A stretch of DNA of 64,000 nucleotides from Marinobacter salsuginis (lineage in GTDB: Bacteria; Pseudomonadota; Gammaproteobacteria; Pseudomonadales; Oleiphilaceae): contig NZ_BGZH01000001.1 in the NCBI RefSeq assembly GCF_009617755.1, forward strand, positions 744,001 through 808,000, written 5' to 3'. Positions 5,022 to 57,980 of this stretch are shown piece by piece. A program made the translations under genes and the position numbers. The notes below the pieces were generated by a model that saw nothing but the letters and a program-made list of their open reading frames with translations, was not told the DNA's origin and made no database searches. Every line of letters begins with the position of its first letter. Position 1 is the stretch's first letter.

Positions 5022-5384
5022 TCGTGTAGTTTCAACCTGAGAGTTGCAGTCGCAAAGAAAAGATGCGGCAACTTTAGCAGTGAGCACCCCTGCAGGCAAG
5101 GCGCTAGCGGGCCTCACGCCTTACGGTTCACACATTTACCTTATGGGCTGGGGCCTCCCGCCATTGTTCGAATCTGTTACCATACTGCCCTTAATCTTTA
5201 TTTGGGTGCAGGGGCGGTTGGAAAAGGCTGTCCAAAACACGCTACAAGCACATCCGTGTGCGCTTGATTCGGGCCATCCATGGCCCTCAACAGTTTTGGA
5301 CAGCCTTTTCCAACCACCCCCGGACCCCGTGCAAAATTCCGGCTTCTTTTATTACCGACATTTCATTTACCTGGGAGGCAATGC
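5022..5384. other. Divergent intergenic region between mreB and gatC
   Basis: This 363-bp gap separates two diverging genes and should hold promoters for both. The only clear structure is the 110-bp palindromic element at 5211-5320. The sequence between 5022 and 5210 shows no open frame I would call a gene. I could not identify a convincing -35/-10 pair in either direction. Confidence 0.6.
5211..5320 (+). repeat. Intergenic palindrome family, copy 1
   Basis: The 28-bp arms (5211-5238 and 5293-5320) pair at 27 of 28 positions. The left arm includes GGTTGGAAAAGGCTGTCC. They enclose a 54-nt core holding two small palindromes: AGCACATCCGTGTGCGCT and GGGCCATCCATGGCCC. The single mismatch is C opposite A on this strand, which would be a G-U pair in RNA of the other strand. 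The copy lies 64 bp upstream of gatC and 189 bp upstream of mreB, so it cannot be a terminator of either gene. Confidence 0.93.
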
Positions 5385-5672
5385 GTGACCATTTCCCGTG
5401 AGGACATTGAGAAAGTCGCTGTGCTCGCCCGCATTCGTGTGGATGACGAGCAGGTTTCGGCTCTGGAGAAGGATCTGGGCAACATCCTGGATCTGGTTGA
5501 TCAGTTGGGTGCGGCCGACACCGATTCGGTTGCGCCCATGGCCCATCCGCTGGATGCGGTCCAGCGCCTGCGCGCGGACGAGGTAACCGAGACCAATCAG
5601 CGGGAGGCGTTCCAGGCGATTGCGCCGGCTACCGAGAACGGGCTTTATCTGGTTCCCCGAGTGATTGAGTGA
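5385..5672 (+). CDS. gatC: Asp-tRNA(Asn)/Glu-tRNA(Gln) amidotransferase subunit C
   Basis: GatC is the small belt-like subunit that stabilises the GatA-GatB pair. The GTG start at 5385 follows a Shine-Dalgarno (GGGAGGC, 5373-5379) and gives the normal 95-residue protein, opening [29 protein letters not shown] and [14 protein letters not shown] are the conserved family segments. The stop overlaps a possible GTG in the gatA frame, but gatA more likely begins at its ATG 11 bp later. Together with gatA and gatB it forms a complete three-gene operon. Confidence 0.96.
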
Positions 5673-5683
5673 AAGGAAACGTC

Positions 5684-7141
5684 ATGCATAGCAAATCTGT
5701 AGCAGAGCTTTCCCGGGATCTGGAGAGCGGCAAGGTGTCCAGCGTTGAGCTGACGCAGGAGTTCCTCGACCGCATTAAGCGGGAAGATTCGAAGTACAAC
5801 AGCTTTATTACCGTGACCGAGGAGCAGGCGCTGGCTGATGCCCGGATGGCGGATGAGCAGCGGGCAGCGGGGAATGCCACGGCCTGGACCGGAGTTCCTT
5901 TCGCGCACAAGGATATTTTCTGTACCAACGGCGTTCGCACCACCTGTGGTTCGAAGATGCTGGAGAATTTTGTTCCGCCCTACGACGCGACCGTTACGGC
6001 GAATTTCCGCCAGGCGGGCGCGGTATGCCTGGGCAAGACCAACATGGACGAGTTCGCCATGGGGTCGTCCAATGAGAACAGTTATTTTGGCGCCGTGACC
6101 AACCCATGGGGATTGAGCGAAGGCAACAAACGTGTGCCGGGCGGGTCGTCTGGCGGGTCGGCTGCGGCGGTTGCGGCTCGACTGACTCCGGCGGCGACGG
6201 CCACGGACACCGGTGGTTCGATCCGTCAGCCGGCGGCGCTGTGTGGTGTTACCGGGCTGAAGCCGACTTATGGCCGGGTATCCCGGTACGGGATGATTGC
6301 CTTTGCCTCCAGTCTGGACCAAGGTGGCACCATGGCCCGCACAGCAGAAGACAATGCGCTTATGCTGAACGTAGTGGCGGGCTTCGATCCGAAAGACTCA
6401 ACGTCCATTGACCGCGAGGTGCCGGATTACACCGCCACGCTGAACGAGCCTTTAAAAGGCCTGAAGATCGGCCTGCCTAAGGAATATTTCAGCGACCAGC
6501 TCAGTCCGGCGATGGAGCAGCAGGTTCGCAACGCGATCAAGGAATACGAGAAGCTGGGCGCCACGGTTAAAGAAGTGTCGCTGCCAAACGCAAAGTTAGC
6601 GATTGCCGCCTATTACGTGATCGCGCCGGCCGAGGCTTCTGCCAACCTGTCACGGTTTGACGGTGTGCGCTATGGCTACCGTTGCGAGGACCCGAAGGAT
6701 CTGATGGATCTGTACACCCGCTCCCGGGCGGAGGGTTTCGGAGAAGAGGTGAAACGTCGGATTCTCGTGGGCACCTACGCCCTGTCCGCCGGCTATTTTG
6801 ATGCCTATTACCTCAAGGCCCAGAAGGTTCGCCGGCTGATCCAGCAGGATTTCATCAATGCCTTCAAGGAAGTGGACGTGCTGATGAGCCCGACCACGCC
6901 CTCGCCGGCCTTTATCCAGGGCGAGAAGACCAGTGATCCTGTGACCATGTATCTGGAGGACGTCTTCACCATCGCCATTAACCTGGCGGGTGTTCCGGCC
7001 ATGTCTGTGCCGGCCGGTTTCGTGGACGGTCTGCCGGTGGGCCTGCAGATCATTGGGGATTATTTCTCAGAGGCCCGTTTGCTGAACGCCGCCCATCAAT
7101 TCCAGCAGGTGACCGACTGGCACCAGCGCGAACCGCAATAA
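5684..7141 (+). CDS. gatA: Asp-tRNA(Asn)/Glu-tRNA(Gln) amidotransferase subunit A
   Basis: GatA is the glutaminase subunit. It releases ammonia from glutamine for transamidation of mischarged Glu-tRNA(Gln) and Asp-tRNA(Asn). The amidase-signature residues are visible: the catalytic lysine in [10 protein letters not shown], the serine-rich [15 protein letters not shown], and the nucleophilic serine in [11 protein letters not shown]. The ATG at 5684 has AAAGGA upstream and gives 485 residues, the usual length. A GTG at 5669, overlapping the gatC stop, is an in-frame alternative. It lies 21 bp upstream of gatB. Confidence 0.97.
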
Positions 7142-7162
7142 GCCCGGGACAGGAGAACGAGT

Positions 7163-56136: not shown

Positions 56137-56175
56137 CAAAACAGTGGAAAAGGTCATAACTTAATCAGATTAATT

Positions 56176-57300
56176 ATGCGTACCCCGGTTCGAGAACGAA
56201 CTCTGGCACCGGCCGTGACTATGAGCGCCACATCATTGAGCACCAGAACATATCCGGAACTCGCTGATCTGCCAGCGCTTATCCGCCAGTGGGCGGCTGA
56301 GCTCGGGTTCTCTGATGTGGGTATCACCACCGCGGATACCGGTGAGCACGCAACCCATTTGCAGGACTGGCTGGCAGCGGGTTACCAGGGCGAAATGGAC
56401 TATATGGCCCATCATGGTGACAAGCGCTACACGCCCACCTCCCTGGTGCCGGGTACTACTCGGGTGATTTCTGTGAGAATGGACTATCTGCCTTCGCCGG
56501 ACAGCCCGAAAGAAGCGCTTACTAACCGGGAGGGCGCCTATGTTACTCGTTACGCACTGGGGCGCGATTACCACAAACTGATCCGCAAGCGTCTCGCGCA
56601 GCTGGCAGCCAGGATTGATGACGCCGTCAGCGGATACGACTACCGGGCGTTCGTGGACAGCGCGCCGGTGCTGGAGCGCGCCCTTGCGCAGAGGGCGGGC
56701 CTGGGCTGGATCGGCAAGAACAACATGCTGATCCACCCGAAGGCCGGTTCCTTCTTTTTCCTTGGAGAAATTTTTACCAGCGCGCCCCTACCCGTCGACG
56801 AGCCCTTTGAGTCCGATCATTGTGGCAGCTGTTCGGCCTGTCTCGATCTATGCCCGACAGACGCCTTTGTCGGCCCCCACAAGCTCGATGCCCGGCGCTG
56901 CATCAGCTATCTGACCATTGAACTCAAGGGGAGCATTCCCGAGGAGCTACGCCCGCTGATGGGTAACCGGGTTTTCGGCTGCGACGATTGCCAGTTGGTC
57001 TGCCCCTGGCAGAAGTTCAGCAAGCCAACCGGGGAAAAGGATTTTCAGCCCAGACACGGGTTGGACAACAGTTCTCTGGCAGAGCTGTTTCTCTGGACGG
57101 AGGAGCAGTTCCTGAAGCGCACCGAGGGATCGGCGATTCGGCGAACAGGCTACGAGGGCTGGCTGCGTAACCTGGCTGTGGGGCTGGGTAACGCGCCCTC
57201 CACCATTCCGGTGATTGAAGCCCTGAAAAAGCGCGCGGACCACCCTTCCGAGATGGTCCGCGAGCATGTCCAATGGGCACTGAAACGCCACGGTTTATAG
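56176..57300 (+). CDS. queG: Epoxyqueuosine reductase QueG
   Basis: QueG uses cobalamin and two iron-sulfur clusters to reduce epoxyqueuosine to queuosine in tRNA. The N-terminal cobalamin domain includes [18 protein letters not shown] and [19 protein letters not shown] with GKNNMLIHP. Two 4Fe-4S motifs follow: [16 protein letters not shown] and [15 protein letters not shown]-like C-terminal helix ends the protein. The ATG at 56176 gives 374 residues; the ATG at 56221 ([16 protein letters not shown]) resembles other QueG starts equally well. It overlaps convergent orn by 6 bp. Confidence 0.95.
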
Positions 57301-57846
57301 TTTGAAGAACTGTTCCCGGTAATGGCGCAGCTCGTTGATGGAGTCCCGGATGTCATCCAGGGCGAGGTGGCTGCCTTTCTTTTTAACCCCGGCCAGGACA
57401 TCCGGGCGCCAGCGGCGGGCAAGTTCTTTGACCGTGGATACGTCGAGATTCCGGTAGTGGAAGAAGTCTTCCAGTTCGGGCATGTACTTGACCAGGAATC
57501 GGCGATCCTGACCAATACTGTTGCCGCACAGGGGTGACTGGCCCTTTTCGACGTGCTTCTTCAGGAATTCGATGGTCTGCTGTTCGGCTTCAGACTCGGA
57601 GATGTCGCTTTCCTGAACGCGCTTGGTGAGGCCGCTTTCACCGTGGGTTCGGGTGCACCATTCGTCCATGGAGTCCAGAAAGGATTGTGGCTGATGGACG
57701 GCGATAACTGGTCCTTCTGCCACAATATTGAGTTCTGAATCGGTGATGATTGTGGCCATTTCGATGATCCGTTCTTTTTCCGGATCCAGGCCTGTCATTT
57801 CCAGATCGATCCATACCAGGCGATTGCCTTCTGTCATTTTCTTCAT
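57295..57846 (-). CDS. orn: Oligoribonuclease
   Basis: Orn is the DEDDh exonuclease that finishes degrading 2-5-nt RNAs and pGpG, thus also closing c-di-GMP breakdown. ExoI is seen in [20 protein letters not shown] (D and E), ExoII in [15 protein letters not shown], and the final DEDDh residues in [16 protein letters not shown] and [15 protein letters not shown]. The 183-residue length is normal. Either the ATG at 57846 or the one three codons later could start it; neither has a clear Shine-Dalgarno. Palindrome copy 8 begins 24 bp upstream of the ATG. Confidence 0.97.
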
Positions 57847-57870
57847 TCCCAGCTTTCGAGATTTGGGGTG

Positions 57871-57980
57871 TGCGGGAGCGGGGACGTGGTTCCGGAAAAC
57901 GCTACAAGCACATCCCTGTGCGCTTGGCTTCGGCCATCCCTGGCCTCAGACATTTCCGGAACCACGTCCCCGCTCCCGCT
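57871..57980 (+). repeat. Intergenic palindrome family, copy 8
   Basis: The 28-bp arms 57871-57898 and 57953-57980 pair at 27 of 28, only the outermost base failing (GCGGGAGCGGGGACGTGGTT...). The 54-nt core carries AAGCACATCCCTGTGCGCTT and CGGCCATCCCTGGCC. It lies in the divergent gap between orn and rsgA and ends 24 bp before the orn start codon. It must therefore overlap the orn leader or promoter. Confidence 0.93.

Follow-up and report, generated by a model that had tools for sequence, protein, structure and literature searches.

A dispersed mobile family of palindromes with a TwoAYGGAY-type core in Marinobacter and other gammaproteobacteria

TwoAYGGAY (Rfam RF01731, clan CL00106, the Csr-Rsm clan; gathering cut-off of 43 bits) is described in the relevant passages of PMC2864571 as an outer, poorly conserved stem closing two hairpins with AYGGAY loops, and is listed there for the human gut, gammaproteobacteria and Clostridiales; a passage of PMC4333381 proposes that it binds CsrA. 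Eight palindromes with this architecture are present in a stretch of 64,000 nucleotides of the Marinobacter salsuginis genome (contig NZ_BGZH01000001.1, positions 744,001 to 808,000; hereafter the window). They belong to a family of elements that are mobile, share a common structure and are constrained in their loops. The architecture and its proposed function are already known, and what is new is a very abundant mobile variant. We read the family, with a probability of roughly 0.6, as dispersed mobile elements built round a TwoAYGGAY-type core that forms a clamped, bivalent CsrA-binding module.

CsrB, RsmY and RsmZ are single-locus small RNAs with several sites, whereas the window family consists of numerous copies that bear two sites each, and no promoter or terminator was found in it. 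REP/REPIN elements, associated with RAYT transposases, are intergenic hairpin repeats that form inverted pairs, as are the elements described here; these differ in having a conserved core and variable arms, and no RAYT was found in element-rich genomes. Integron attC sites have conserved ends and a variable centre; the window elements are imperfect palindromes too, but it is their centre that is conserved. Bacterial miniature inverted-repeat transposable elements are resembled by non-coding units of one distant genome (G322), which end in terminal repeats of 17 bp and are flanked by target duplications of 9 bp, whereas the copies in Marinobacter lack clear ends or duplications, and the conserved centre recurs in G322 units with differing ends. 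The window family also has the GGA hairpin loops through which the CsrB/RsmY/RsmZ sponge RNAs sequester CsrA (passages of PMC7652899 and PMC4333381). No title or abstract describing the dispersed family was found in a literature search that lay outside most subscription journals.

A conserved core with two ANGGAN loops

A sequence-only reading of the window had pointed out eight palindromes with a common core and self-complementary arms. All eight are present, six on the + strand and two (17378 and 22116) on the − strand, each approximately 110 nt long, with a core of 52–57 nt (borders as set in this analysis) and with 27, 27, 26, 28, 25, 23, 27 and 27 of 28 arm positions paired in elements 1 to 8. 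Their single-strand folding energies range from −62 to −88 kcal/mol, and the RNAalifold consensus of the eight comprises 37 pairs, 27 of which show at least one double change. The terminal ACA attributed to most cores is found in some subfamilies and is not a mark of the whole family. A covariance model built from the eight copies was searched against the 4.15-Mb M. salsuginis genome (G000) at E ≤ 0.1, giving 103 rows, or at least 91 distinct places once 12 opposite-strand repeats are removed (best 150 of 642 candidates). The core pattern alone has 33 matches in this genome, some of which are not elements, against none for the same pattern read backwards, so the palindromes are not a few chance copies. 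From the covariance-model matches 90 copies were extracted, and counts were made on the 86 that are 105–117 nt long; the other four (57, 101, 125 and 148 nt) are truncated or carry inserts.

Both hairpins of the core carry ANGGAN loops, on the strand opposite to that given in the sequence-only reading. A1, G3, G4 and A5 are invariant in the 172 loops of the 86 copies, and the loop-closing pair is C-G in 171. Position 2 is T in 98 loops, G in 42, A in 21 and C in 11, and position 6 is T in 124, C in 39, A in 8 and G in one, so that a pyrimidine occupies position 2 in 109/172 and position 6 in 163/172. The gap from loop to loop is 18 nt in 44 copies, 17 nt in 29 and 19 nt in 12, with one copy unscored, and the pattern [AU]CANGGANG[UA] is present in 81 of the 86. 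The stems of the core vary among subfamilies while the loops stay constant. Between orthologues, the fixed loop positions show no differences (0/312), compared with 5.2% for the core and 13.7% for the arms, the last value being an underestimate because the most diverged pairs were left out.

The loop conservation is not produced by the search model, since a scan that ignored the loops gives the same result. Inverted repeats with 21/26 positions paired and arms 40–75 nt apart were collected from 1.35 Mb of four genomes; 78 of the 86 repeats found are family elements, six elements being missed, and all 78 carry both loops, whereas the remaining eight repeats carry none. Copies from distant genomes (69 distinct matches at 60 loci) have both loops in 65 cases, comprising 33/35 at class and order loci, 18/20 in genome G312 and 14/14 in G322.

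By its sequence, the ANGGAN loop is the published CsrA/RsmA hexaloop, which is given together with the consensus from systematic evolution of ligands by exponential enrichment (SELEX) in part of a review (PMC7652899). The exact SELEX 12-mer RUACARGGAUGU occurs in 14 of the 69 distant matches, and each of 38 genomes compared has a csrA-family match. According to the same part of the review, CsrA bridges two sites 10–63 nt apart, with an optimum above 18.

The sequence-only reading did not recognise the family. Its architecture is that published as TwoAYGGAY, including the poorly conserved paired outer stem, so that one of the grounds for refutation named in that reading, a published family sharing the core, applies in part; the window copies fall below the RF01731 cut-off. 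A scan of the window against Rfam at gathering level gave no match; with relaxed thresholds, RF01731 picks up three of the eight elements, at 32–36 bits and on the ANGGAN strand. Across the 38 genomes, RF01731 matches are present in 26 at E ≤ 0.01 (best 54 candidates or fewer per genome), and nine matches in seven genomes exceed the cut-off, including none of the eight in M. salsuginis. Relaxed Rfam matches to mir-266 and Ysr224 resemble generic long hairpins and were set aside. The window family further differs from TwoAYGGAY in accepting any base at loop position 2, and in having about a hundred dispersed copies with drifting arms, exchanged cores and transposition, none of which features in the passages on TwoAYGGAY cited here. 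Because the architecture is the same and RF01731 recognises it only in part, we do not file the window family as a plain member of TwoAYGGAY.

The loop-blind scan also found, in three relatives, another class of long-armed palindromes (arms of the type GTGGGGTGGGTGCGTATTTTTCT) with a distinct core containing CAACTCGCTTCGCTCAGACATC (L220 19329-19549, L203 17360-17402 and L186 19769-19812); none was seen in the stretch of the M. salsuginis genome that was scanned.

Distribution and transposition

The covariance-model search shows the family to be scattered over many genomes of Marinobacter and its relatives. Of the 38 genomes, M. salsuginis included, 28 have matches, and these comprise every one of the 25 Marinobacter genomes, in which the number of rows runs from 3 to 100 (best 100 candidates or fewer per genome). 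Among the named records compared, the one closest to the M. salsuginis genome is from Marinobacter maroccanus (88.3% over 6.7 kb), in keeping with the genus. Class-wide, at least 46 of 274 genomes (M. salsuginis included) and at least 41 of 222 genera have matches, which are lower bounds given the stricter filters and the best 13 candidates per genome. Named records with the core pattern, among the matches listed, come from Marinobacter, Halomonas, Saccharospirillum, Thiohalobacter, Thiogranum, Ca. Tenderia, Sedimenticola and Aquisalimonas. The 56-nt core consensus had no match at E 1e-3 among plasmids, phages and E. coli genomes, and a 25-base core pattern had none among viral contigs, so that, at that sensitivity, neither a phage nor a plasmid origin is supported.

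Elements are mostly 109–116 nt long, with a rarer form of 191–193 nt. This form has an additional domain of approximately 80 nt, made up of more hairpins, inside the first small hairpin, and is located at L242 18052-18242 (contig C1 of M. salsuginis), L185 17041-17233, L182 18692-18883 and L171 7892-8083; C1:1314309 (L100) appears to match it in part.

The distant genome G322 has 135 covariance-model rows, and many of its elements are near-identical units, arms included, that are bounded by 17-bp ends CAGCAATTCCCARTTTG. Among 29 units inspected, the length is 165 bp in 13, and an exact 9-bp target duplication flanks 22, or 24 if one mismatch is accepted. A second type of unit has other ends and the same core (by eye). 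In G322, the arms therefore travel with the core as parts of one unit, by ordinary transposition. Some G322 units carry one or two additional hairpin inserts of approximately 49 nt in the second hairpin, and one is nested in another unit type (L434, L435, L441, L444, L448, L449, L451, L457, L462 and L464). A 1.3-kb interval between G322 ends, considered as an autonomous element, was rejected, as it consists of nested units and has no transposase-sized frame (one interval, of 289 end matches in the genome).

Gain of copies is also seen within Marinobacter. Four species (G000, G009, G023 and G069), whose DNA is 86–87% identical in long alignments, were compared at orthologous sites, and copies present in a single species occur on all four lineages: at 47607, 202359 (element 7 of the window), 259853 and 298052 in G000, 146072 in G009, 60301 in G023 and 301351 in G069. 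On a four-taxon tree not all of these can be losses, and recombination with unsampled lineages is another possible source of such copies.

A proposed CsrA-binding module or a selfish element

Should the ANGGAN strand be transcribed, its long stem would serve as a clamp, allowing the tip to fold whatever the sequence context, and a CsrA/RsmA dimer would be bound by the two loops. The family would then scatter ready-made bivalent CsrA sites, acting as signals in untranslated regions (UTRs) or, summed, as a distributed sponge. A stem that serves as a clamp would leave the arm sequence free provided that pairing holds. That the elements are transcribed, bind CsrA or influence its pool is our inference.

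The leading alternative, less probable in our estimate but a serious one, is that the family is a selfish miniature transposable element, its core being kept for reasons at the DNA level, such as recognition by a transposase or the recognition of a single-stranded hairpin or cruciform, with the likeness to CsrA sites incidental. The terminal repeats and 9-bp duplications in G322 fit such an element, as does the carriage of one core by two unit types with different ends. So does the arrangement of neighbours in M. salsuginis, where pairs of elements within 450 bp are ordered + then − in 10/10 cases. The same order holds for 6, 2 and 3 pairs of three relatives, a large part of them inherited from common ancestors, for 12/12 in named loci and for 5/5 in G312; same-strand neighbours are the exceptions, in other lineages (G322 and G034; loci L087 and L408). 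Against the selfish element stand the loops, in which only the two positions tolerated by CsrA vary, across different stems and host lineages, as well as the loop spacing and the likeness, in part, to a Csr-Rsm clan family.

Several observations weigh against the CsrA-binding module, some of them in favour of the selfish element. The elements have no strand preference relative to genes (the upstream gene points towards the element in 50/90 cases and away in 40/90), which speaks against a simple role in 3′ UTRs, and the 50-nt flanks, displayed as an ungapped logo, show no promoter-like conservation. Orientation is kept in 67 of 72 orthologous comparisons, and the five inversions fall at two sites. 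At 42317 the core is reversed between similar arms, a surprising state if the function lies in a single RNA strand; the arms at 319524 are dissimilar, and there a second insertion may have occurred. One loop is altered in 4 of the 69 distant matches, decayed copies in the relatives G042 and G016 have lost or altered loops, the second loop of the 165-bp G322 units can be drawn as five nucleotides, and an insert splits the second hairpin in 11 of the 29 G322 units. SELEX, as reported in part of PMC7652899, suggests that stems of much more than four pairs may disfavour CsrA binding. As for mobility, lineage-specific copies in Marinobacter show short outer boxes only and no target duplication by eye, and no transposase could be linked to the elements in the one 1.3-kb G322 interval looked at, of 289 end matches.

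Arms with conserved pairing and drifting sequence

Of 27 arm positions, 25.5 are paired inside a copy, compared with 13.0 between copies (86 copies), and over the outer 17 positions the values are 15.7 and 6.5. The arms had been taken as mostly unrelated between copies; they do share a weak consensus, G-rich outside and CTTTCC inside, with outer boxes resembling TTTGGRG and CCCARAC. At orthologous sites of the four species the left and right arms diverge jointly. In 39 orthologous pairs, 102 arm positions are altered on both sides with pairing kept, 78 are changed on one side and two are changed without pairing in either; among unchanged positions, 856 are paired and 15 unpaired. These pairs leave out 20 whose arms are less than 18/27 identical, as well as pairs of unequal length or opposite orientation. 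A selected structure with covarying arms, one of two explanations offered in the sequence-only reading, is thus supported in so far as pairing is kept up, for which either selection or copying between the arms could account. Differing core modules lie between matching arms at 260822 and 42317, and near-identical cores in unlike arms would follow from arm drift together with core exchange and purifying selection on the cores.

The window elements illustrate the turnover of such sites. Element 1 (5209..5320, +) has arms at 5211-5238 and 5293-5320 (27/28 paired) around a core at 5239-5292, with loops ATCCGT at 5252-5257 and ATCCAT at 5276-5281, which read as ANGGAN on the − strand. Its orthologues are found in G009, G023 and G069, and as the long form with one altered loop in G042 and a decayed copy in G016. 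At element 2 (8671..8782, +; arms 8673-8700 and 8755-8782, 27/28; core 8701-8754; loops 8714-8719 and 8738-8743), G009 has a different core subfamily and G042 only the outer left arm. Elements 3 and 4 form a +/− pair: element 3 (17103..17214, +; arms about 17104-17131 and 17188-17215, 26/28; loops 17146-17151 and 17170-17175) has a core-less site in G023, G042 and G016, and element 4 (17379..17491, −; arms 17378-17405 and 17463-17490, 28/28) carries AGGGAT at 17418-17423 and ATGGAC at 17442-17447 on the + strand. A further palindrome of the type GTAGGTTGGATTA ... TAATCCGACCTAC, which we take to resemble a REP repeat, lies between them at 17251-17340. The second +/− pair comprises element 5 (21958..22067, +; arms 21958-21985 and 22042-22069, 25/28; loops 22001-22006 and 22024-22029), which is also present in G009 and missing from G023 and G069, and element 6 (22115..22224, −; arms 22115-22142 and 22195-22222, 23/28), with ATGGAT at 22153-22158 and ACGGAC at 22176-22181 on the + strand and a decayed copy in G042. 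Element 7 (38359..38470, +; arms 38361-38388 and 38443-38470, 27/28; loops 38402-38407 and 38426-38431) is confined to M. salsuginis among six genomes compared, its site being empty in G009, G023, G069, G042 and G016. At the site of element 8 (57869..57980, +; arms 57871-57898 and 57953-57980, 27/28; loops 57912-57917 and 57936-57941), G042 has lost the core and keeps the left arm with its inner motif.

The other explanation in the sequence-only reading, that insertion of a core leads to inverted duplication of approximately 28 nt of flanking DNA, is very unlikely. It would account for the perfect arms of 30–42 bp that end abruptly in distant copies, and for the lack of a recognisable donor with the same arms in the M. 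salsuginis genome (arm windows out of register). Yet in G322 the arms are common to the copies and lie within units flanked by target duplications, arm sequence is also shared among copies within other lineages (by eye; in part in G312), and the composition of the arms, position by position, is unlike that of the flanks. One arm is kept at some core-less sites, as the mechanism would have it, but where the inner-arm motif is retained, as at element 8 in G042 and at 255875 in G069, these sites look like deletions. When occupied sites are compared with empty ones, neither arm is seen at the empty sites of 47607 and 259853 (by eye), whereas the right end of 298052 resembles the empty site.

Genomic context

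According to a home-made gene finder, 89 of the 90 copies in M. salsuginis are intergenic; the flanking genes are sense-sense in 26 cases, convergent in 24, antisense-antisense in 21 and divergent in 18, with one overlap. Intergenic placement would suit a role at gene ends, as intrinsic transcription terminators or as hairpins that stabilise RNA, and terminator-like hairpins are more frequent in the left flank (9/86) than in the right (3/86) or in shuffled left flanks (2–5). Such a role is nevertheless highly improbable, as a T-tract follows the stem in only 11/86 copies on one strand and 2/86 on the other, elements also lie between divergent genes, and the loops would be needless. The left flank of the M. 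salsuginis copies, from −45 to −8, is T-rich and A-poor (34% T, 17% A). It was dropped as a family trait because 29 distant copies do not show it (28% T, 25% A). Mobilisation as REP/REPIN elements by a RAYT transposase would fit the intergenic hairpins, high copy number and inverted pairs but can be dismissed almost entirely, as no Y1 transposase (PF01797) was detected at E ≤ 1e-5 in ten genomes with at least 59 element rows, M. salsuginis included.

Possible implications for CsrA regulation

A broader proposal, which we hold only tentatively and consider doubtful, is that transposition has spread bivalent CsrA traps over gammaproteobacterial chromosomes, up to a hundred or more of them, and that these jointly set the free CsrA pool, so that the size of a genome-wide sponge would follow the turnover of a mobile element. 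In Marinobacter, where neighbouring copies run + then −, any transcript crossing such a pair would contain a single ANGGAN element, whichever way it runs, namely the downstream copy. The family links TwoAYGGAY, an orphan RNA family, to mobile elements and provides it with numerous copies that can be counted in bacteria amenable to culture, Marinobacter among them. Its long stems are also a large natural series in which to ask how drifting inverted arms stay complementary. If the loops bind CsrA, predictions of CsrA targets in these gammaproteobacteria would need to take in the sites within these elements, and transposition would have rewired a global post-transcriptional regulator in many of these bacteria.

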